A DNA stretch of 64,000 bases, from assembly GCF_000317145.1 (NCBI RefSeq), contig NC_019697.1, positions 4,910,886 through 4,974,885 of the forward strand, given 5' to 3'. The position numbers and the translations under genes were made by a program. Below the pieces are notes generated by a model, which was given only the letters and a program-made list of their open reading frames with translations, searched no databases and was not told the origin of the DNA. The DNA comes from Chamaesiphon minutus PCC 6605 (GTDB lineage: Bacteria; Cyanobacteriota; Cyanobacteriia; Cyanobacteriales; Chamaesiphonaceae). This document shows, piece by piece, positions 8,253-43,145 of this stretch; the stretch's first letter is position 1; each line of letters begins with the position of its first letter.

Positions 8253-8555
8253 TTATTCTTCACTCTGAAATAAACTTTCCAAATCCTGACGAGCATTAAC
8301 TACGCGCACAATTTCTAGTCCATCGTCTATTAAACGATAGAGAATGATATGGCTCTGAAGTGGAATGCCACGCAGATCGAATCGAATATGTGAATAGCTT
8401 CTGCCCATTGCGGGAAAAGTGGCTAGATTCCGACATTTTTTAGTAAATTCTTGCAGGAACTGTTCGCCAGCATTTATATTACGCTCTAAAAAATAGTCGG
8501 AAATATCATCGAGATCGCGCAGGGCACTGGGTGCAATAGAACAGCGCATCATCAA
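8253..8555 (-). CDS. RelE/ParE-family toxin
   Basis: A 100-residue toxin of the ParE/RelE superfamily. It has an N-terminal helical hairpin (SALRDLDDISDYFLERN), a middle GIPLQSHIILYRLIDDG strand pair and a C-terminal VVNARQDLESLF, which is the usual 'hxRVLHxRRD' position of ParE toxins. ParE toxins poison gyrase; RelE relatives cleave mRNA on ribosomes. The ParE branch is favoured by the lack of RelE-type catalytic basic residues and by the ParD-like partner. Its start overlaps the antitoxin stop by 4 bp (ATGA), implying coupled translation. Confidence 0.85.
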   Translation of the reverse strand: MMMRCSIAPSALRDLDDISDYFLERNINAGEQFLQEFTKKCRNLATFPAMGRSYSHIRFDLRGIPLQSHIILYRLIDDGLEIVRVVNARQDLESLFQSEE

Positions 8556-8815
8556 GTTGTTTCCTTTGCCGATCGGAATTTTTGTTGTAGTCTATCGATC
8601 GCTAGATCTAGCTCCACTCCTTCACCTCGATCGAGTTCGGCAATAGCAACATCTACTTTTTGACGAGTATCTTCAATCCAATTTTCATAATCTCGATACT
8701 TTTCTTCTAGTAACTTAAAAGCCTGAAATGCAGCTTCATCAGCAGATTTAAACCTACCTCGATCGATTTGCGATTGGATAAACTGCTCTTGTTCTGGATT
8801 GAGGGCAATATTCAT
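8552..8815 (-). CDS. ParD-like (CC2985-type) antitoxin
   Basis: About 87 residues from ATG at 8815, which has GGAG suitably placed upstream (ggagatagtttgt). The frame is open further upstream, but the longer version adds a non-conserved tail. The N-terminal segment MNIALNPEQEQFIQSQIDRG followed by RFKSADEAAFQAFKLLEE is the ribbon-helix-helix DNA-binding domain of ParD/CopG antitoxins. The C-terminus (ELDLAIDRLQQKFR) would wrap the toxin. It is upstream of the toxin with a 4-bp overlap and should autorepress the pair. No flanking mobile element is visible. Confidence 0.85.
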   Translation of the reverse strand: MNIALNPEQEQFIQSQIDRGRFKSADEAAFQAFKLLEEKYRDYENWIEDTRQKVDVAIAELDRGEGVELDLAIDRLQQKFRSAKETT

Positions 8816-8991
8816 ACAAACTATCTCCTGTATTAAATAGAGCTTTTCGCTCACCCCTATTTTAATCTCGATCTAACTCTAGTTACTACTATGCGTCGCT
8901 GCACTTGGCAGTCAAAGGATGTTGGTAGTCGATCGCGATGCCTGAAAACCGATATACTAGCCTCTAGCCATTCCTCACGACCCACTAATAT

Positions 8992-33793: not shown

Positions 33794-34570
33794 TTAGTCG
33801 ATTGTCTTTGTCTTGTAAAACTCATGTTCGATTAACTTAATCGATAGTATTAGCTCTGCAAAGACTCGCTGAAATGCGTAATAGATACCATGCCAACCAT
33901 CCAGAATCCCGCCTTTATAAATTAGGCAATAGACAAAAACTAGTACTGGCGCGATAACTTTAGCCAGTCTAATTTTATCTACAAAACTTAGTTGTGTTGG
34001 TGGTATATCGATCAGCTTTTTCATTTCTAAGTCTGCATATTTAATTTGCGAGTTAAACCATCTATTTACAGGTTTACGGTCGTCATGATAAATATGCTCT
34101 TTGAGAGTACCTGACAGACCTTTATTTACCAATAATTGGGTATGCCCGTCATCAATATAAGTACATGCCTCCTTGCGAAATAGTGCTTGACGCGGCGGAA
34201 GAATGGCTCGCTGTAAAGGTTTGCCAAATACGCAAAACTTGAACGGTACAAAGTAACCGTCGATCGAGCGATCGTTTAAAGCTGAAATCTCACCTACTAG
34301 TCGATCGGGAATACAATAGTCAGCATCGAGCGAAAGTACCCACTCCGAACTAACTTGTCGCACACCATAGTTCCATTGAATGGCATGAGTATCGAAAGCA
34401 CGTTGGAAGACTTTGACACAAGGATAAGATTTGAGAATATTTAAGGTTTCATCATTACTATAACTGTCGATAACTACAATCTCTTTTGCCCATGCTAATT
34501 TTTCGATAGTTCGAGCTATATTGGGTGCTTCATTATAAGTGAGGATTAACGGGGTAACTTTATCTAACAT
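33794..34570 (-). CDS. Glycosyltransferase family 2 (WaaE/KdtX-like)
   Basis: A 258-residue GT-A enzyme. The fold opens LTYNEAPNIARTIEKL, then VVIDSYSNDET, then the metal-binding DAD at 82-84 (LSLDADYCIPD). A C-terminal hydrophobic segment (VIAPVLVFVYCLIYKGG) suggests membrane association. WaaE-like GT2 enzymes add glucose or heptose-linked sugars in surface glycans. It follows sdhB by 37 bp on the same strand. Confidence 0.85.
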   Translation of the reverse strand: MLDKVTPLILTYNEAPNIARTIEKLAWAKEIVVIDSYSNDETLNILKSYPCVKVFQRAFDTHAIQWNYGVRQVSSEWVLSLDADYCIPDRLVGEISALNDRSIDGYFVPFKFCVFGKPLQRAILPPRQALFRKEACTYIDDGHTQLLVNKGLSGTLKEHIYHDDRKPVNRWFNSQIKYADLEMKKLIDIPPTQLSFVDKIRLAKVIAPVLVFVYCLIYKGGILDGWHGIYYAFQRVFAELILSIKLIEHEFYKTKTID

Positions 34571-34607
34571 TTGTGGCTATAGGTAATGATTTACTCTAGA
34601 TCCGAAC

Positions 34608-35345
34608 CTAAGATCGAGCTTGACGGTATTCTCGATTGAGATGGGCGATAGTTGCTAGAGAAATTTCTTTGGGACATACCGCCGAGCAGGAGCCAGTATT
34701 ACTACAACTACCAAAACCTTCTTTGTCCATCTGTGTCACCATATTCAGAGCGCGGCGTTGTCGTTCGGGTTGCCCTTGTGGCAAGAGTGATAAGTGGGAG
34801 ACTTTTGCTGCGACAAACAGCATTGCCGAGCTATTTTTACAAGCAGCAACACAGGCTCCGCAACCGATACACATTGCATCGGCAAAAGCAGCAGCGGCGA
34901 TATCTTTGGCAATGGGTGTCGCATTAGCATCTACAGCGTTGCCAGTATTGACGGAAATATAGCCGCCAGATTGGATAATGCGATCGAATGCCGATCGATC
35001 GACCATTAAGTCTTTGATTATTGGAAAAGCATTCGCACGCCAGGGTTCGACTGTAATCGTGTCCCCATCCCGATAGGAACGCATATAGAGCTGACAGGTA
35101 GTACTAGCTGTCTTGGCACCATGCGGGCGACCATTGATATACATCGCACAGGAACCGCAAATACCTTCACGACAATCATGGTCGAAGGCGATCGGGTCTT
35201 CATCTGCGATAATCAGGTTTTGATTGAGTAGATCGATCGTTTCCAAAAAAGACATGTCTGGCGAAACGTCAGCAAGCTGATATGCCACAAATCGACCGCT
35301 AGATTGGGCTGAGGCTTGTCGCCAAATTTTGAGAGTGAGTTTCAT
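34608..35345 (-). CDS. sdhB: Succinate dehydrogenase iron-sulfur subunit
   Basis: A 245-residue SdhB/FrdB. The [2Fe-2S] ligands are in CREGICGSC (Cys58, 63, 66) and TTC (84). Ferredoxin-type ligands follow in [11 protein letters not shown] and [12 protein letters not shown] for the [4Fe-4S] and [3Fe-4S] clusters. The length and [11 protein letters not shown] segment resemble the type-B (Bacteroidetes/epsilonproteobacterial-like) enzymes. It overlaps sdhA by 4 bp. It passes electrons from flavin to the membrane quinone site. Confidence 0.95.
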
Positions 35346-37252
35346 TTGTAAGAACGTTGACTCAATTGTGCTAGCTCAAATTCTACCGGTTCTGGGTGAA
35401 ACTGCCATTGAAGATCGGGTAGATATTCCCAGGCGGCAACATGAGCGTATGCCTTATCATTACGTTGAGCCTCACCCGCCTCGGTTTGGAATTCAGTGCG
35501 GAAATGACAGCCGCAGCTCTCTTGACGGTGGAGGGCATCGATACACATTAATTCGCCCAATTCGAGAAAATCAGCGACGCGTTGCGCCAGATCTAGTTCG
35601 GGATTGAGTGCATCGACGGTACCTGGAATTTTTGCATCTTGCCAAAACTCCGAGCGTAAAGCCTGAATTTCGAGAATCGCCGATTTTAATCCCGCTGCCG
35701 TTCGGACGATGCCGCAATGCTCCCACATAATTTGACCCAAGCGACGATGAAAACTAGTAACTGTTTGACAACCCTGAATGTCAATCAATCGCTCTAGTCT
35801 GGCTCGGACGGCGGCTTCCGCTCGCATAAACTCTGGTCGGTCGATCGAGATTGGAGCCGTACCCAGATCGTCAGCTAAATAGTTGCTAATTGTAGCCGGA
35901 ATCGTAAAATAACCATCCGCCAAACCTTGCATCAAGGCCGAAGCACCGAGCCGATTGGCCCCATGTTCGCTAAAGTTAGCTTCTCCCAAACAATACAAAC
36001 CAGGAATCGCGGTCATTAATTCATAATCTACCCATAACCCACCCATCGTGTAATGCACCGCTGGATAAATTCGCATGGGCACGGCATACGGATCTTCACC
36101 CGTAATCTGGGCATACATCGCAAACAAGTTGCCGTATTTATTTTGAATCGCCGCTCGACCGAATCGATCGAGAGCGGCAGCAAAATCGAGATATACCGCT
36201 CGTTGGGAATGACCGACCCCATAACCAGCGTCACACACTTCTTTAACCGCGCGGGAGGCAATATCGCGGGGGACGAGATTGCCATAGGCGGGATAGCGTC
36301 GCTCCAAAAAGTAGTCGCGTTCCGATTCGGGAATTTCTACAGCCGGACGGCGATCTCCTGCCGTTTTGGGTACCCAAATTCGACCGTCGTTGCGCAAACT
36401 CTCCGACATCAGCGTCAGTTTCGACTGATGTTCGCCAGCCACGGGAATACAAGTCGGGTGAATCTGGGTAAAGCAAGGATTGGCAAATAATGCACCTTGC
36501 TTGTGAGCTTTCCAACTCGCACTCACGTTACTACCGATCGCATTGGTAGATAGATAAAAAACATTACTATATCCGCCCGAACACAGCAGCACCGCATGAC
36601 CGAAATGTCGCTCTAGTTCGCCTGTGATTAAGTTACGAGCGATAATCCCCCGCGCTTTACCGTCGATGCGGACAAGATCGAGCATTTCGTGGCGGGTATA
36701 CATGGCAATCTTACCCAGCGCGACTTGGCGTTCGAGGGCTTGATAGGCACCCAGCAACAGTTGCTGCCCCGTCTGTCCCGCCGCGTAGAAGGTACGCTGT
36801 ACCTGCGTGCCACCAAAAGAGCGATTGCTAAGCATTCCGCCATATTCGCGCGCAAATGGGACGCCTTGAGCCACGCAGTGGTCGATAATCTGGGTGCTAA
36901 TTGTGGCTAATCGATAGACATTGGCTTCTCGCGATCGATAGTCACCACCCTTAATCGTATCTATAAATAACCGCTGGACGGAATCGCCATCATTCTGATA
37001 GTTCTTAGCTGCATTAATCCCCCCTTGGGCGGCGATACTATGGGCGCGGCGGGGGGAATCCTGAAAACAAAAAGCTTTGACTCGATAGCCCTGTTCTGCC
37101 AGAGTCGCCGCTGCCGAGGCTCCAGCCAATCCGGTACCGATGATGATAATTTCTAGCTTACTTTTATTGGCAGGACTAATCAGACGGGCATTTTCTTGGT
37201 AAGTCTGCCACTGTTGAGCCACAGGCACCGCTGGAATTTTAGAATCGAGCAT
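35342..37252 (-). CDS. sdhA: Succinate dehydrogenase flavoprotein subunit
   Basis: About 636 residues from ATG at 37252 (GTG at 37258 is an alternative). The FAD-binding Rossmann motif [10 protein letters not shown] comes first, followed by the flavinylation His in [11 protein letters not shown]. The substrate-site region includes HPTCIP and the capping-domain motif MGGLWVDYE. The length is that of type-B SdhA. It oxidises succinate to fumarate at the cytoplasmic face. It overlaps the 3' end of sdhC and the start of sdhB, a tightly coupled operon. Confidence 0.95.
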
Positions 37253-37892
37253 AGCCACTAATGAAGAAAAAGATCGGAATAGCTGCCAACCCTAATGGTA
37301 CTACAATGGCAAAACTAATGCCGATCGGAGCGATGAGCTGAAGATATTGCTCTGTTACGCCCAGCGTAATGCACAGGCTGCGCCAGCCGTGGAGTAGATG
37401 TGCCGATAGCGCAATACAACCTAGCACGTAGATAGAGATTACCCAGCCGTGGCTCATGGTGTCTCGCACCAGCCTATACAAACTATCGGTGCTAGTTCCG
37501 ATCGCGTTAGGCAACCAGAATTGGTATAAGTGTAAGACTAAGAAGACTAAAATTATCCCACCGAGCAGACCCATCGATCGAGCCGGATCGAATGACAAGC
37601 CAGGATTGACAGCATAAGGGGTGCTGCGTTTCGACTGGTTTTGGATACTAAGAGATATCCCCTGCCAAATATGGACGATCGAGCTACTAAATACCAATAT
37701 TTCTAGGCCGTGTAGTAGCCAATTATGACGAAGTAGCTCGGCGGTGCGATCGAATAACCGACCGCCATCATTAACAAAAAGGGTAGCATTGAGGCCGAGA
37801 TGGACGACTAAAAAAGCTATTAAGAACAGCCCCGTGCCAGCCATGATGACTTTGCGGCCGATCGAAGAGGAGTAAAAGTTAGGGACTTGCAT
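37239..37892 (-). CDS. sdhC: Succinate dehydrogenase cytochrome b subunit (type B, five helices)
   Basis: A 217-residue membrane anchor with five predicted helices and His residues in membrane positions suited to two hemes ([47 protein letters not shown]). This is the single-polypeptide, di-heme type-B arrangement, not the two-subunit SdhC/SdhD type. It lies 9 bp downstream of a glycosyltransferase gene on the same strand. Complete sdhCAB operons are unusual in cyanobacteria, where sdhA and sdhB are normally scattered, so transfer is likely. Confidence 0.9.
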
Positions 37893-37901
37893 ATCGATAC
37901 T

Positions 37902-39071
37902 TCATAACAGATCTCGGTAAACTCGAATTAACTCTACGGCAATCGGCTCCCAAGTGTAGTGTTCGAGTGTAAACTGACGAGCGCGATCGCCGATCGATTT
38001 GGCTAGATCGAGATCGGTTAAGACTCGATCGAGGACATGAGCGATCGATTCGATATCTAAATCGGCGACAAAGCCAAGACCTTTATCGCTCACAACCGGA
38101 GCTAGACCGACCCCTGGGGTAACTAAGACTGGAGTACCAACTGCTAAGGCTTCTAAGACAGAAATCCCAAAGTTTTCGGAGTGCGAGGTTAATGCAAATA
38201 AATTAGCTCCTTGAATTAATAAATCTTTGCGTTCTCCCTCAACAAACCCAACCATCCGCGTCCGCTGCTCGATGCCAGCATCAGCTAGTAATGCCTGAAT
38301 TTCGGCTTCATAAGCTGGAGTACCATTGCCAGCCAAGACAAAAGTAAACCGCCGCTCTGTGATCCGTCCGAGCGCAGGAATCAAATACTCTAAACCTTTT
38401 TTATAATGCAGTCGAGATAAAAATAGAATAATTGGTTCGTCTAGGGCACAATTCAAACTTTGACGCAGGAGTTTAGCGGCATCCGGAATCTGGACTGGGG
38501 TATCTGTCAGGGCAAGTGGTAAGACAAAGGTTTGCGACTTCAAGTTCAGTGTCGCCACATCATCGCTTTCTTGCTGGCAAGTTACCTGGATCGATCGAGC
38601 ACCATTAAGATTGGCTCGTTCGATCGCATTGAGATAAGTTTGCTTTTTCTGTCCGCCTTGCTGAAGCGACCACGCACAGAGCATTCCATGTGGGGTGGTA
38701 ATGTACGGAATACCTCTGAATCGCGCGATCGCCATCGTTACTGTGGCTGTGTACGAAAATAGTGCATGAACGTGAATCACATCGTACTTGGTTACATTTT
38801 GGAATAACCAATTTGTAAACGATCCCGAAAATGCAAAGTCCCGGAGTGCGGGTAATTGGGGCGAGAAGCGAGCAAAAAAATAAGTAGGAACTCGATCGTA
38901 GATAGTAGACTTCCCTAATGGCACATCGAGCAAATTGTCCCCATCATCATTGGTAGTGGCAATTTCAGCATCGATCCCGCAATCTCGGAGGGCGCGCACC
39001 ATATCTAAGACGGCGCGACTCGTCCCCCCTCTGGCGGGAGAAACCGAAGGAATTACATGTAAGATCTTCAC
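37902..39071 (-). CDS. Glycosyltransferase family 4
   Basis: A 389-residue GT-B enzyme. The N-terminal acceptor domain begins HVIPSVSPARGGTSRAVLDM; the donor domain has ILFLSRLHYKKGLEYLI and the E-x7-E motif in SHSENFGISVLEALAVGTPV. The N-terminal 'GG(T/P)xxxxxxL' form is typical of exopolysaccharide mannosyl/galactosyl transferases; the sugar is unknown. Its ATG overlaps the upstream polymerase stop by 4 bp, and sdhC follows after 9 bp. Confidence 0.9.
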   Translation of the reverse strand: MKILHVIPSVSPARGGTSRAVLDMVRALRDCGIDAEIATTNDDGDNLLDVPLGKSTIYDRVPTYFFARFSPQLPALRDFAFSGSFTNWLFQNVTKYDVIHVHALFSYTATVTMAIARFRGIPYITTPHGMLCAWSLQQGGQKKQTYLNAIERANLNGARSIQVTCQQESDDVATLNLKSQTFVLPLALTDTPVQIPDAAKLLRQSLNCALDEPIILFLSRLHYKKGLEYLIPALGRITERRFTFVLAGNGTPAYEAEIQALLADAGIEQRTRMVGFVEGERKDLLIQGANLFALTSHSENFGISVLEALAVGTPVLVTPGVGLAPVVSDKGLGFVADLDIESIAHVLDRVLTDLDLAKSIGDRARQFTLEHYTWEPIAVELIRVYRDLL

Positions 39072-40447
39072 TGATATATCCCAACATTATCGACATATTC
39101 TGCTTCGATACTCGCCTGATAAGTACGGAATCGATCGACTTCGAGTAAATATCCACCCATCATCAAATATGTCAAGAATGCCAGCAGCGAGAATGTAATA
39201 TTCCCTAATAAAAATGCTTCAAAACAACTACCAATTAGCATCGATCCTAGTCCTGCGATTACGGCACTGCTCTGAAAAAAGTAATATGAATTACGATTGC
39301 TCAATTGATTTAGTTGCCAAATCATCTTCACAGACTCCCATCCCATCATCATCATCGGAATGAATCCCATTAAGCCAAGAGATGCGCCTACAGCGAGCCA
39401 AGAGTTTTCACCATAACCAAATCGACTGCCCTGTGCGAGTGGAGATCCGAATAAAATATTATCCATAAAAGCATTCCACATCCCATTCCAGACATTTTCA
39501 CGAGTATTACTGGTAGATGTAAAGCGATCGCTCACATTTGTATCTATCCCTGTTGATGATGAACTCAAAGAATCTGCTCCTAAAAATGGTAAAACCAAGG
39601 CTGCGGATATGGCTAAAAACAAGATAATGCGTAACCAAGCTCCGCCATTATTCCGGTAAAACAATAAAATTGAAACAGCACTCATCATTAAGCCCGTACG
39701 AGAACCACTGAGTAATAAAAAGTACAAGGTTACCATTAAGGTTGCTACCCATAAGAATTTAGCAAAATTCCATCTGGGTATTTTTTGAATCAAAAACATC
39801 AAGCATGGAATCGTTGCGGCTAATAGTACGCCTGCATGTTGAGGATTTCCGGTCGTTCCTAAGAAGCGACCTTGTACGAACGTAATTGGTTGGCGGTTAA
39901 TTAAAAATTGAATGCTATTGACAAAGACAAAAATCAATCCTGCTACTGCGATCGATTTAACCGCAAGATGAAAATTTTCATCATCCTGCATCCATTTACC
40001 CGGACCCATTTTGAACATAAAGATGATGCCACCAAACGTCAATGCAGAGATAACTGCAAATTCTCGATCGCCATAAAGCACCGTCTTCGCAAAAATGCAA
40101 AATTGGACGGCTAGGAGATAATTGATAGCTTTAGGAAGTAACTTTTGTCGCCAATTATTCTGAGTTTGTAATGCTACAAATATTAGTAGTATTAACAATA
40201 CAATTGCCAATGGCCTACCATTACTACGAATTTGCTGGAGTGGAAACATTAGTGGTGGTGTCACTCTCGTCCACTGATCCTTAAATGTATTGAGGGATGA
40301 AGCAAAGCAACAGAGACTAAACAGCAACCAGCCTGTGGGACGATCTCGACTAGCTTTGACGACCATCAGTAAACCGATGGCAATACCAATTATGCCAATG
40401 GGAGTGGAGATGAAACCAATCAGTTGGTCGATAAAGGTTTTATTCAT
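39068..40447 (-). CDS. O-antigen ligase / Wzy-like polymerase
   Basis: A 459-residue protein with 11-12 membrane helices. The periplasmic-loop signature of the Wzy_C/WaaL family is visible: LLSGSRTGLMMSA, then a loop with TGIDTNVSDRFTS and TRENVWNGMWNAF, then YGENSWLAVGASLGLMGF. Family members join lipid-linked repeat units or ligate glycan to acceptors at the outer face of the inner membrane. Its presence suggests Wzx/Wzy-type assembly, although no Wzx flippase is in the window. Confidence 0.85.
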   Translation of the reverse strand: MNKTFIDQLIGFISTPIGIIGIAIGLLMVVKASRDRPTGWLLFSLCCFASSLNTFKDQWTRVTPPLMFPLQQIRSNGRPLAIVLLILLIFVALQTQNNWRQKLLPKAINYLLAVQFCIFAKTVLYGDREFAVISALTFGGIIFMFKMGPGKWMQDDENFHLAVKSIAVAGLIFVFVNSIQFLINRQPITFVQGRFLGTTGNPQHAGVLLAATIPCLMFLIQKIPRWNFAKFLWVATLMVTLYFLLLSGSRTGLMMSAVSILLFYRNNGGAWLRIILFLAISAALVLPFLGADSLSSSSTGIDTNVSDRFTSTSNTRENVWNGMWNAFMDNILFGSPLAQGSRFGYGENSWLAVGASLGLMGFIPMMMMGWESVKMIWQLNQLSNRNSYYFFQSSAVIAGLGSMLIGSCFEAFLLGNITFSLLAFLTYLMMGGYLLEVDRFRTYQASIEAEYVDNVGIYQ

Positions 40448-40459
40448 ATTTTAATTTGA

Positions 40460-41587
40460 TTAAGTTAGAACTCGATTCTTTCCAGCAGAGGCTCCGCCAA
40501 AGAGAGATGTCGAACTGAGTTTGCTTACTTTTGCTATCCGGAGAGAAGCTTGCCACCGATCGACCCAAATACCACTTGCATAGGGAGCAGCTAGTGTTTG
40601 AGATCTTTGACCCCAGATAGGTAACTCGGCATGATGCTGATGAAAGGTTAAGAAGGCTTGGGTGATACTTGCGGTATTTTCTTCAGGAATTACTAAACCG
40701 TTGTACCATGAGCGGACAACTTCGACCTCAGAACCACATACATCGGTACAAATAATTGGCAAACCTGCGGCGGCTGCTTCGACAATCGCTAACGGCCAGG
40801 GGTCGAATCGACTAGGGAGGATAAAAGCACCAGCCGATTGCCACACAGATTCCATATCAGTAGGTTGTAAAAAGCCACGATCGATAATTCCTGGTTTGCC
40901 TGCTAATTGAGATTTAAGTTCGCCTTGACCGCAACACACCAAATCCCAAGGATCTTCAACTCGATCGCGATAATCTTGATAGGCTTGGACTAATAAATCG
41001 ATCGCTTTGACCGGAATATAACGTCCGATAAACAGAAACGATCGTGGCCAGTCTGCTTGAGATCGTTTTTTCCACAGCGGCACCCAGCTATTGTAGTCAA
41101 TCCCATATAAACCTCGATCGATTCGCTCGGCTGCAATCCCCAATCGTTTGGCATATTGCCAGCTTCGCTCGCCTGTAACGACTACTCGATCCATCCGTTG
41201 CAGAAAAGAGCGTAGTACTAGCGGTGCCAGTCGTTGGCGCAAGTTATCTTTCCAAGGCGTATCCATGCCCATGATAAAAGCGGCATTTTGGAGCTTACTT
41301 GAAGTGGCTAATTTACAGTAGGGTTGATGCAACCAGCCACACATAACCACGACATCTGGGTGTTCTGATAACACCAGTTGCTCGATCGAATTTGAATCTT
41401 GTCGAGCCTGAAGATCGAGTAATTTAGAGGGAATACCTTGCATTAATCGATCGCCAAAAGCAGTTTCTGTCAATGCTTGAAATGCAATTACAAAAACATC
41501 GATCTCGGCTGATTCTTGCAATGCTCGCCAGCAGGCAGCCATATAACCAGAGATATCCGACCAACAGAAGACAACCTTGAGTTTCAT
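40460..41587 (-). CDS. Glycosyltransferase family 4
   Basis: About 375 residues from ATG at 41587; GTG at 41599 adds four residues. KVVFCWSDISGYMAACWRAL starts the GT-B acceptor domain. The donor domain has SFLFIGRYIPVKAIDLLVQA, then FILPSRFDPWPLAIVEAAAA as the E-x7-E equivalent, with the second acid within AIVEAA. It is 12 bp upstream of the Wzy-like gene on the same strand and 19 bp after the lipoprotein gene, so the three should be co-transcribed. Confidence 0.87.
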   Translation of the reverse strand: MKLKVVFCWSDISGYMAACWRALQESAEIDVFVIAFQALTETAFGDRLMQGIPSKLLDLQARQDSNSIEQLVLSEHPDVVVMCGWLHQPYCKLATSSKLQNAAFIMGMDTPWKDNLRQRLAPLVLRSFLQRMDRVVVTGERSWQYAKRLGIAAERIDRGLYGIDYNSWVPLWKKRSQADWPRSFLFIGRYIPVKAIDLLVQAYQDYRDRVEDPWDLVCCGQGELKSQLAGKPGIIDRGFLQPTDMESVWQSAGAFILPSRFDPWPLAIVEAAAAGLPIICTDVCGSEVEVVRSWYNGLVIPEENTASITQAFLTFHQHHAELPIWGQRSQTLAAPYASGIWVDRWQASLRIAKVSKLSSTSLFGGASAGKNRVLT

Positions 41588-41606
41588 ATTTACCAGCACT
41601 ATCGAT

Positions 41607-43145
41607 TTAAACGTCTTGTCGATCGACCCAGATTAATTTGGCGAAATCGCCAATCCGCTTTGCCGTGTAAACACTACCATTCGGACGGGCAGTTACATCT
41701 ACGCGACCGAGTTGGGGAATATCGATCGTTGCTTGACGAGAATTACCTCCTGCTGCCCAAGCCACGATCGACCAGTTAGCCTTGTTGCGATGCTTGCGAG
41801 CTAAAACTCGAATATCTGGATCTTTAGTCGGAAATTCATAAGCTGGCGTATCTTTAGACCACACATGTTTCATCGGCCCTGGTAGTAAATCTCCTTGGCG
41901 CAGATAATTTTCTAAATGGCTGAAAATGGCATGAACGCGACTGAGGGCAACCATTTGTAACAGCCAATTTGGCGGTCGATCGGCATTGAATGAAATCTCA
42001 AATCCACCCGTTGGGAAATCGAAGTAGCCAGCAATACTACCGATATTTCCTGCCATATAGTAGCACTTTAGAAATCCAATGTATCGATCGATCTCGCCAA
42101 ATACCGGATCTTTACCGCGCATCCAGCCACTACAAACCCAGTTATAAGACAGAGGATCGCCGAACTTAATTTGCTGTCCGACGGAGTTAAGGACTTGTGT
42201 GAGAATGTCCATGTTCCCCGTCCAACCAGTATTAAACTCTTTGAAATATGTTGAGCTGCTGGGACGATCGGAAATCTTCCGCATGTACTTATAGTCATAG
42301 CACCATTGTTCCCAGCCGCCATAACGTCCGCGATGGGGATTGCTATCGGCGGGATAGTAAACATACATTTGACGATCGGGTACGGCTTGACGGACAGCCT
42401 TGGTGATAAACGACTCCTGATAAGCCTTGCGAGCGGAAATATATTCAAACCAATCGCGGTTTCTCCTTGCTGAAACTACTTGGGGATCGCGTTCGCAGGA
42501 TTTCTGAATGCCACCCAAGACAGTCAATCCATATTCCCCACCGTTTAAAACCACGGAGATCGGTGCTTTGCTGCGAATCTGTTTTAATGGATCGGATCGC
42601 AGCTTGGCAGCGGCTTGTAATGCCGCTAGGGGGGCTTCTGGACTCCAGATTTTTTTACCATCTAGCAATTCCCCGCGTTCGTTCCGCAACCAAATTGCGT
42701 CAGGGGTAGTGGGTAGCTCTGGGCTAAGAATCACGGCAAGTTGGTAACGTTTGGGATTGGCAGCAGCCAAAGCCATTACTTTAGCTTCTTCACTTTGGGG
42801 ATTACCCAGGGCGGAAGCAACTCGATCGACAGTTGCATAGGGACCCCACTCTAAAGCATAGCCCCAGCGATCGGCTAGTTCGACTCTACTGTCAAATGGC
42901 AATGTCCATCCAAACCGAGTCAGTGGCGGAAGTGTATGACCTCGCTTGAATTTTGGTGCGGGCAGTTGTTTTAAGTACTGTGCTGGGTCGAGCGAGGTAC
43001 CAGTACCGATCGCGACAATCGGTGTCGCCGCATCATCAGACATTTCGGATAAGATCGAGCGGGCGCGCGATCTTGCTTGCCGATTGCTACAAGCGATCGC
43101 TCCCATCAATCCAGCACCTGCAAGAATAATCTGTCTGCGTTGCAT
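41607..43145 (-). CDS. Uncharacterised lipoprotein, possible glycoside hydrolase
   Basis: 512 residues. The N-terminus MQRRQIILAGAGLMGAIACS is a signal peptide with a lipobox ending at Cys19, so the protein should be lipid-anchored after Lgt/LspA processing. The body reads like an alpha/beta barrel with many aromatic residues (GWEQWCYDYKYMRK, YFKEFNTGWTGNMD, WVCSGWMRGKDP) and ends in a beta-rich domain (TIDIPQLGRVDVTARPNGSV). This architecture resembles glycoside hydrolases plus a C-terminal sandwich, but I recognise no GH family. In context it might trim or process the exported polysaccharide. Confidence 0.5.
   Translation of the reverse strand: MQRRQIILAGAGLMGAIACSNRQARSRARSILSEMSDDAATPIVAIGTGTSLDPAQYLKQLPAPKFKRGHTLPPLTRFGWTLPFDSRVELADRWGYALEWGPYATVDRVASALGNPQSEEAKVMALAAANPKRYQLAVILSPELPTTPDAIWLRNERGELLDGKKIWSPEAPLAALQAAAKLRSDPLKQIRSKAPISVVLNGGEYGLTVLGGIQKSCERDPQVVSARRNRDWFEYISARKAYQESFITKAVRQAVPDRQMYVYYPADSNPHRGRYGGWEQWCYDYKYMRKISDRPSSSTYFKEFNTGWTGNMDILTQVLNSVGQQIKFGDPLSYNWVCSGWMRGKDPVFGEIDRYIGFLKCYYMAGNIGSIAGYFDFPTGGFEISFNADRPPNWLLQMVALSRVHAIFSHLENYLRQGDLLPGPMKHVWSKDTPAYEFPTKDPDIRVLARKHRNKANWSIVAWAAGGNSRQATIDIPQLGRVDVTARPNGSVYTAKRIGDFAKLIWVDRQDV

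Follow-up and report, generated by a model that had tools for sequence, protein, structure and literature searches.

A type-B succinate dehydrogenase operon of probable Bacteroidota descent in a polysaccharide gene cluster of the cyanobacterium Chamaesiphon minutus PCC 6605

Complex II oxidizes succinate and reduces quinone by way of flavin adenine dinucleotide (FAD), three iron-sulfur centers, and two b hemes. In a 64,000-nucleotide stretch of the Chamaesiphon minutus PCC 6605 genome (the whole of which is called the window below), the sdhCAB operon encodes a predicted type-B form of this enzyme, succinate dehydrogenase (SDH), and lies among polysaccharide genes. The closest described systems are the sdhCAB operons of Bacteroidota (Chitinophagaceae, Sphingobacteriaceae), which have the same gene order C-A-B and are nearest to the window operon in phylogenetic trees; SdhA proteins of the window's family are 70-73% identical to those of the nearest named Bacteroidota (among the best 80 matches listed). 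Unlike the Bacteroidota operons, the window genes overlap, belong to a cyanobacterial host, and have polysaccharide genes as neighbors, and the window SdhB and SdhC are more diverged than SdhA.

The usual cyanobacterial SDH with an HdrB/SdhE subunit, as described for Synechocystis SdhA, SdhB1, and HdrB in a 2024 paper (PMC11014987), has the same expected reaction and distantly homologous SdhA and SdhB, but it has no transmembrane di-heme SdhC, and its flavoprotein and iron-sulfur subunits belong to other families. That paper describes cyanobacteria as lacking SdhC and SdhD, with HdrB apparently in their place; according to the legend, this statement rests on E. coli queries. Freshwater picocyanobacteria, for which another paper (PMC10161378) gives three adjoining genes sdhC-sdhA-sdhB and already names sdhC in a figure legend, resemble the window both in this respect and in being cyanobacterial hosts. 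Among open-licence PMC papers, we found no report of a type-B SDH transfer into cyanobacteria and no paper on Chamaesiphon succinate dehydrogenase. The analysis below makes it quite probable that the window carries the only complex II found in this genome, and that this type-B enzyme was derived from Bacteroidota and later moved into a glycan cluster; the enzyme itself is a well-known one, and its transfer across phyla is well supported. The operon consists of the following genes.

37239-37892, minus strand: sdhC, type-B membrane anchor of the cytochrome b558 family, 217 amino acids (TIGR02046, 129.2 bits; cut-off 96).
35342-37258, minus strand: sdhA, flavoprotein (NF005749, 1135.8 bits; cut-off 866).
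34608-35345, minus strand: sdhB, iron-sulfur subunit, 245 amino acids (NF005746, 418.5 bits; cut-off 243).

The sdhA gene starts either with GTG at 37258 (638 amino acids) or with ATG at 37252 (636 amino acids), the latter being the start of sdhA in a congener, genome G003. The overlap of sdhA with sdhB is 4 bp, and that of sdhC with sdhA is 14 bp with the ATG start and 20 bp with the GTG start. All three open reading frames (ORFs) are intact, as judged from the ORF list of the window and the family models, and their ratios of nonsynonymous to synonymous substitution rates (dN/dS) relative to G003 are 0.064 for sdhA, 0.064 for sdhB, and 0.152 for sdhC. The order C-A-B on one strand is found in the window and in 74 of the 75 named loci that have all three genes.

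The AlphaFold2 model of SdhC (predicted local distance difference test score, pLDDT, 87.8) contains five long helices (residues 10-39, 58-88, 103-130, 149-176, and 181-215). Four histidines of this protein, His31, His74, His121, and His165, are invariant in all 48 aligned SdhC sequences and are probably the heme ligands. Together with the family scores above the cut-offs, the five-helix anchor and the four invariant histidines bear out the preliminary description of a complete type-B-like sdhCAB, and the predicted products confirm these as genes of a type-B succinate:quinone oxidoreductase. The best solved match to both SdhA (992 bits) and SdhC (163 bits by profile) is the SDH of Chloroflexus aurantiacus (9lay, 9laz, 9lb0, 9lb1), and the SdhC model is superimposed on its anchor 9lay_C with Z 22.4 and a root-mean-square deviation of 2.8 over 209 residues. 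This bacterium belongs to another phylum, and its SdhA groups with Actinomycetota sequences, not with the window family. The quinol:fumarate reductase of Wolinella succinogenes (1qlb, 2bs2-2bs4) has the same single-subunit, two-heme anchor fold (Z 14.5 to 15.3 over about 205 residues), but the anchors are only about 13-14% identical, and the SdhA match is limited to 164-165 bits. The best row outside complex II in this fold comparison has Z 7.5.

Six SdhA residues (His73, His267, Glu286, Arg331, His402, and Arg436) are invariant in 19 of 19 aligned sequences and align with active-site residues of E. coli FrdA. SdhB contains 11 cysteines with the usual spacing for three clusters. By analogy with the enzyme family, SdhA would convert succinate to fumarate at FAD, the electrons would pass through the three iron-sulfur centers of SdhB and then through two b hemes held by the SdhC histidines, and the membrane quinone, presumably plastoquinone, would be reduced last. 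Since Bacteroidota use menaquinone and cyanobacteria use plastoquinone, the acceptor of the transferred enzyme has probably changed, and the operon provides a natural experiment on whether complex II of a menaquinone-using phylum works with plastoquinone. We infer an ordinary succinate:quinone reductase, presumably acting on plastoquinone. It is unlikely that the enzyme is instead mainly a quinol:fumarate reductase of dark or anoxic cells: the family models span both directions, and the anchor fold is common to the quinol:fumarate reductases of Wolinella, which runs mainly in the reverse direction, and Desulfovibrio, but the closest solved relative both by sequence and by fold is the C. aurantiacus succinate dehydrogenase, and the direction is not revealed by sequence.

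Exactly one SdhB scores above the cut-off in the whole genome. The usual cyanobacterial SdhA (NF004613) was not found in it above the cut-off of 824, the best score of 310.8 bits belonging to L-aspartate oxidase, which is the next flavoprotein of the genome (868.6 bits with its own model; cut-off 723). The HdrB/SdhE anchor was likewise not found in the genome, where the only two CCG domains both reside in one GlcF-like ORF (307.4 bits; cut-off 333). The same number of CCG domains, two, was counted in each of ten type-B genomes, in three genomes with no SDH detected, and in genome G026, whereas all seven genomes examined with the usual (type-E) enzyme, which complete this set of 21, have extra ones (4, 4, 4, 4, 4, 4, and 7). 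One extra two-CCG protein, that of genome G023, has its best scores with the SdhE and HdrB models, below their cut-offs. The search for a second sdhA or sdhB elsewhere in the genome, which the preliminary description had proposed, was thus negative with family models, and the type-B enzyme appears to be the only complex II of the cell, as far as found.

A survey of 386 cyanobacterial genomes, each at least 90% complete and together covering 140 genera, revealed the type-B flavoprotein in 36 genomes of 18 genera, including other orders and classes (three of the 36 are outside the window's class), and the type-E flavoprotein in 115 genomes of 63 genera, 114 of them above the cut-off. No genome is on both lists, and 235 are on neither. 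The type-B flavoprotein was also matched in Synechococcus elongatus, which served as a control. The type-B SDH thus represents a second cyanobacterial solution, and in this survey it never coincides with the usual one (36 vs 115 of 386 genomes). The earlier remark that cyanobacteria usually have no clear di-heme anchor is consistent with the majority type, but 36 of the genomes have this flavoprotein. When five more genomes (G003, G005, G009, G010, and G055) are added to these 36, none of the resulting 41 has the usual SdhA above the cut-off, and all of them have a single SdhB. The sdhA locus was read at length in 30 of the 41 besides the window; SdhC was recognized adjoining sdhA in 26 of these 30 loci and was not recognized beside it in the other four (G055, G204, G090, and G355). 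In several groups sdhB is apart from sdhA (for example, G018, G022, G029, G055, G125, and G204).

The type-B SDHs of cyanobacteria form several separate groups in the SdhA and concatenated trees: group f13 is near Actinomycetota in the concatenated tree, f41 branches deeply with f37 in the SdhA trees, and f9 stands alone. Several transfers of type-B SDH into cyanobacteria are therefore likely on the tree topology. Group f41, which we take to be the picocyanobacteria, is a clade separate from the window family. Seven genomes (G001, G002, G004, G006, G007, G008, and G049), six of which belong to the window's genus, have neither SdhB nor the usual SdhA above the cut-off, and two of them (G004 and G006) are 99-100% complete; these seven bacteria seem to live without a succinate dehydrogenase. 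Genome G026 (locus L066) retains the usual cyanobacterial SdhB (NF009227, 544.9 bits), and neither the usual SdhA above the cut-off nor an extra CCG anchor was found in it.

Dri1 has been proposed as an SDH regulator acting through SdhB1, in the paper cited above (PMC11014987). DUF2470, the domain family of Dri1, is present in 21 of 21 type-B genomes, in three of three SDH-less genomes, and in G026, but in only nine of 15 type-E genomes. The possibility that DUF2470 was lost together with the type-E SDH was rejected, given its presence in all these type-B and SDH-less genomes. The distribution is the reverse of that predicted by regulation of the type-E SdhB1 and raises a question about the proposed role of Dri1.

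For comparison with other phyla we used the 80 best named loci. The first SdhA tree contained 65 rows (33 named loci, 30 cyanobacterial sequences, the window, and 9lay), of which 16 were dropped to give a more careful tree of 49 rows. The SdhB tree included 30 named loci and the SdhC tree 29 (SdhC of locus L187 is cut by its contig), and the concatenated SdhABC alignment had 47 rows with 29 named loci, cyanobacteria with no recognized SdhC being left out. No cyanobacterium is among the best 80 named SdhA matches listed, and the type-B SdhA proteins aligned from other cyanobacterial families share no more than 67% identity with those of the window's family. In the careful SdhA tree, the five sequences of the window's family fall inside the Bacteroidota, with successive forks supported at 91/98, 100/99, 87/86, 99/92, 100/97, 94/87, and 96/93; L171 is the one Bacteroidota row outside that clade. 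In the concatenated tree the supports along the path are 97/93, 100/98, 100/97, 100/99, 100/99, 83/97, 100/99, 100/97, and 98/89, and the family is nested among Chitinophagaceae and Sphingobacteria rows (the last three of these values). SdhC also falls inside the Bacteroidota clade (99/98), and the trees agree on two pairs, the window with G003 and G009 with G010.

When the family SdhA is held together with the main type-B clade of cyanobacteria, the tree is worse by 83.5 log units and is rejected by the approximately unbiased (AU) test (p-AU 6e-7); the same grouping of SdhC was rejected as well (p-AU 0.004). In the phylogenetic check suggested in the preliminary description, a cyanobacterial grouping was thus rejected for these two subunits and not for SdhB (see below). 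The proposal of a foreign respiratory operon, made in the same description, is strengthened by the SdhA and concatenated trees, which place the operon closest to Bacteroidota and away from the remaining cyanobacterial type-B enzymes sampled, and by the agreement of SdhC. Descent of the family's SDH from Bacteroidota, near Chitinophagaceae, is supported by these topologies. In the SdhA and concatenated trees, the sdhCAB of locus L137, on a contig labelled Beijerinckiaceae, falls among Chitinophagaceae; this locus may represent either a transfer or a mislabelled bin.

The surroundings of the operon in the window are as follows.

33794-34570, minus strand: family-2 glycosyltransferase (GT2), downstream neighbor of sdhB (PF00535, 63.3 bits).
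34571-34607: 37-bp gap between sdhB and GT2.
37893-37901, minus strand: 9-bp gap between the HpsP-like glycosyltransferase gene and sdhC.
37902-39071, minus strand: HpsP-like family-1 glycosyltransferase, upstream neighbor of sdhC (NF038295, 292 bits, below the cut-off of 550).
39068-40447, minus strand: Wzy-like gene (Wzy_C match just below the cut-off, 29 of 31.7 bits).
40460-41599, minus strand: glycosyltransferase gene, upstream on the same strand.
41607-43145, minus strand: ORF of 512 amino acids, unmatched in Pfam and NCBIfam at E 0.001.

These coordinates agree with the gene overlaps of 4-14 bp and the 9- and 37-bp gaps to same-strand glycosyltransferase genes noted at the outset. The operon of G003 has the same neighbors (89% identity for GT2, 84% for the HpsP-like glycosyltransferase, and 65% for the Wzy-like protein), except that an acyltransferase gene (PF01757) sits between sdhC and the upstream glycosyltransferase gene, so that about 240 bp and the acyltransferase gene, followed by a 75-bp gap, separate the latter from sdhC. 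The 118-bp gap between sdhB and GT2 of G003 (locus L087, approximately 908-1027) contains a long perfect inverted repeat, GAGGGGAAGGGTAATT.../...AATTACCCTTCCCCTC; the corresponding 37-bp gap of the window lacks this repeat, which may serve as a terminator or be a small mobile element.

The placement of sdh in such a cluster is confined to these two (the window and G003) of the five SDH-bearing genomes of the family. In the other three, G005, G009, and G010, the sdh orthologs (SdhA 83-87% identical) are outside such a cluster, in unrelated places; sdhB is on a separate contig in G005 and 2.4 kb from sdhA in G010. Four of the family's ten other genomes (G002, G003, G004, and G007) have an ortholog of GT2. 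In G004, which has no SdhB, the orthologs of GT2 and the HpsP-like glycosyltransferase (the latter 68% identical) adjoin, with 55 bp between the matches, in a largely collinear cluster, and in G002, also with no SdhB, an acyltransferase gene abuts GT2. Since sdh occurs in other contexts and the cluster genes occur without sdh, the operon and the cluster have separate histories. This leaves the joint transfer of sdhCAB and the polysaccharide genes as one foreign block, suggested in the preliminary description, unsupported and with hardly any probability. Such a block would account for the contiguity on one strand in two species, but not for the sdh orthologs elsewhere in G005, G009, and G010 or for the flanking genes without sdh in G004 and G002; in addition, the GC content of the sdh genes (0.48-0.51) is unlike that of GT2 (0.39) and the Wzy-like gene (0.40), though near that of the HpsP-like glycosyltransferase gene (0.475).

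We infer instead that the operon was probably gained from a Bacteroidota donor, possibly Chitinophagaceae-like, by an ancestor of the cyanobacterial family, for which no type-E enzyme was detected. This single gain would precede the split of the family and be followed by one or few losses in a part of the genus, and later, in the lineage of the window and G003, the operon would have relocated into an existing polysaccharide cluster, ahead of GT2. Relocation is most likely the reason for its present place, as judged from the gene contexts in relatives.

Several observations weigh against this history. Both the donor and the direction of transfer rest on uneven sampling, because the comparison set was picked by likeness to the window protein and 76 of its 80 loci are from Bacteroidota. 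A long branch leads to the family (0.46 in the SdhA tree and 0.59 in the concatenated tree). SdhB is placed just outside the Bacteroidota core (96/84 for joining the core, 97/81 for the core itself), and uniting it with the main type-B clade of cyanobacteria was not rejected (p-AU 0.13). A second PF13085 match of 24.4 bits, below the cut-off of 27, is present elsewhere in the genome. The relatives, G003 included, are available as draft assemblies, with completeness of 77-100% among the congeners. The six SDH-less congeners are united only weakly in the PurH protein tree (65/93) and not resolved on DNA; the PurH DNA tree does join the window with G003 (95/97). Finally, insertion in the window and G003 lineage appears to be the simplest order of events, and excision in the others is the alternative.

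On the tree evidence, a vertically inherited cyanobacterial type-B SDH, whose Bacteroidota-like position would be an artefact of uneven sampling or of a long branch, is nevertheless very unlikely. The presence of type-B SdhA in 36 of the 386 genomes, with other orders and classes among them, and the compatibility of SdhB alone would fit vertical inheritance, but it is rejected by the AU tests of SdhA and SdhC, the concatenated tree puts the family deep in Bacteroidota, and identity to Bacteroidota exceeds identity to other cyanobacteria.

In the window, the 9-bp gap upstream of sdhC is too short for a separate promoter. Transcripts of sdhC therefore probably arise either from a promoter within the glycosyltransferase gene or by read-through, and in this strain the glycan genes are a plausible origin of such read-through. 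A scan for promoter-like and terminator-like sites stayed at the level of chance (16 found vs 18.0 expected and nine vs 9.8 expected, respectively). A functional placement, with succinate oxidation and quinone reduction co-regulated with polysaccharide synthesis or export, was considered in this connection. The position has been kept in the window species and G003 despite a dS of 0.48 for sdhA, and no promoter would fit into the 9-bp gap, but the arrangement occurs in two of five SDH-bearing family genomes, in G003 the acyltransferase gene and longer gaps intervene, and no accessory protein connects the two processes. We therefore regard a functional placement as improbable. Because the arrangement is seen in two species, one with the intervening acyltransferase gene, a tie to glycan export has no support from conservation, and the link between quinone reduction and export drawn in the preliminary description is left unsupported. 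Similarly doubtful is the picture of a plastoquinone phototroph with a captured di-heme, menaquinone-type enzyme as its sole complex II that would be expressed in a polysaccharide operon and would track sheath synthesis.

Elsewhere in the window, at 8253-8854 on the minus strand, two overlapping ORFs of 100 amino acids look by eye like a toxin-antitoxin pair.

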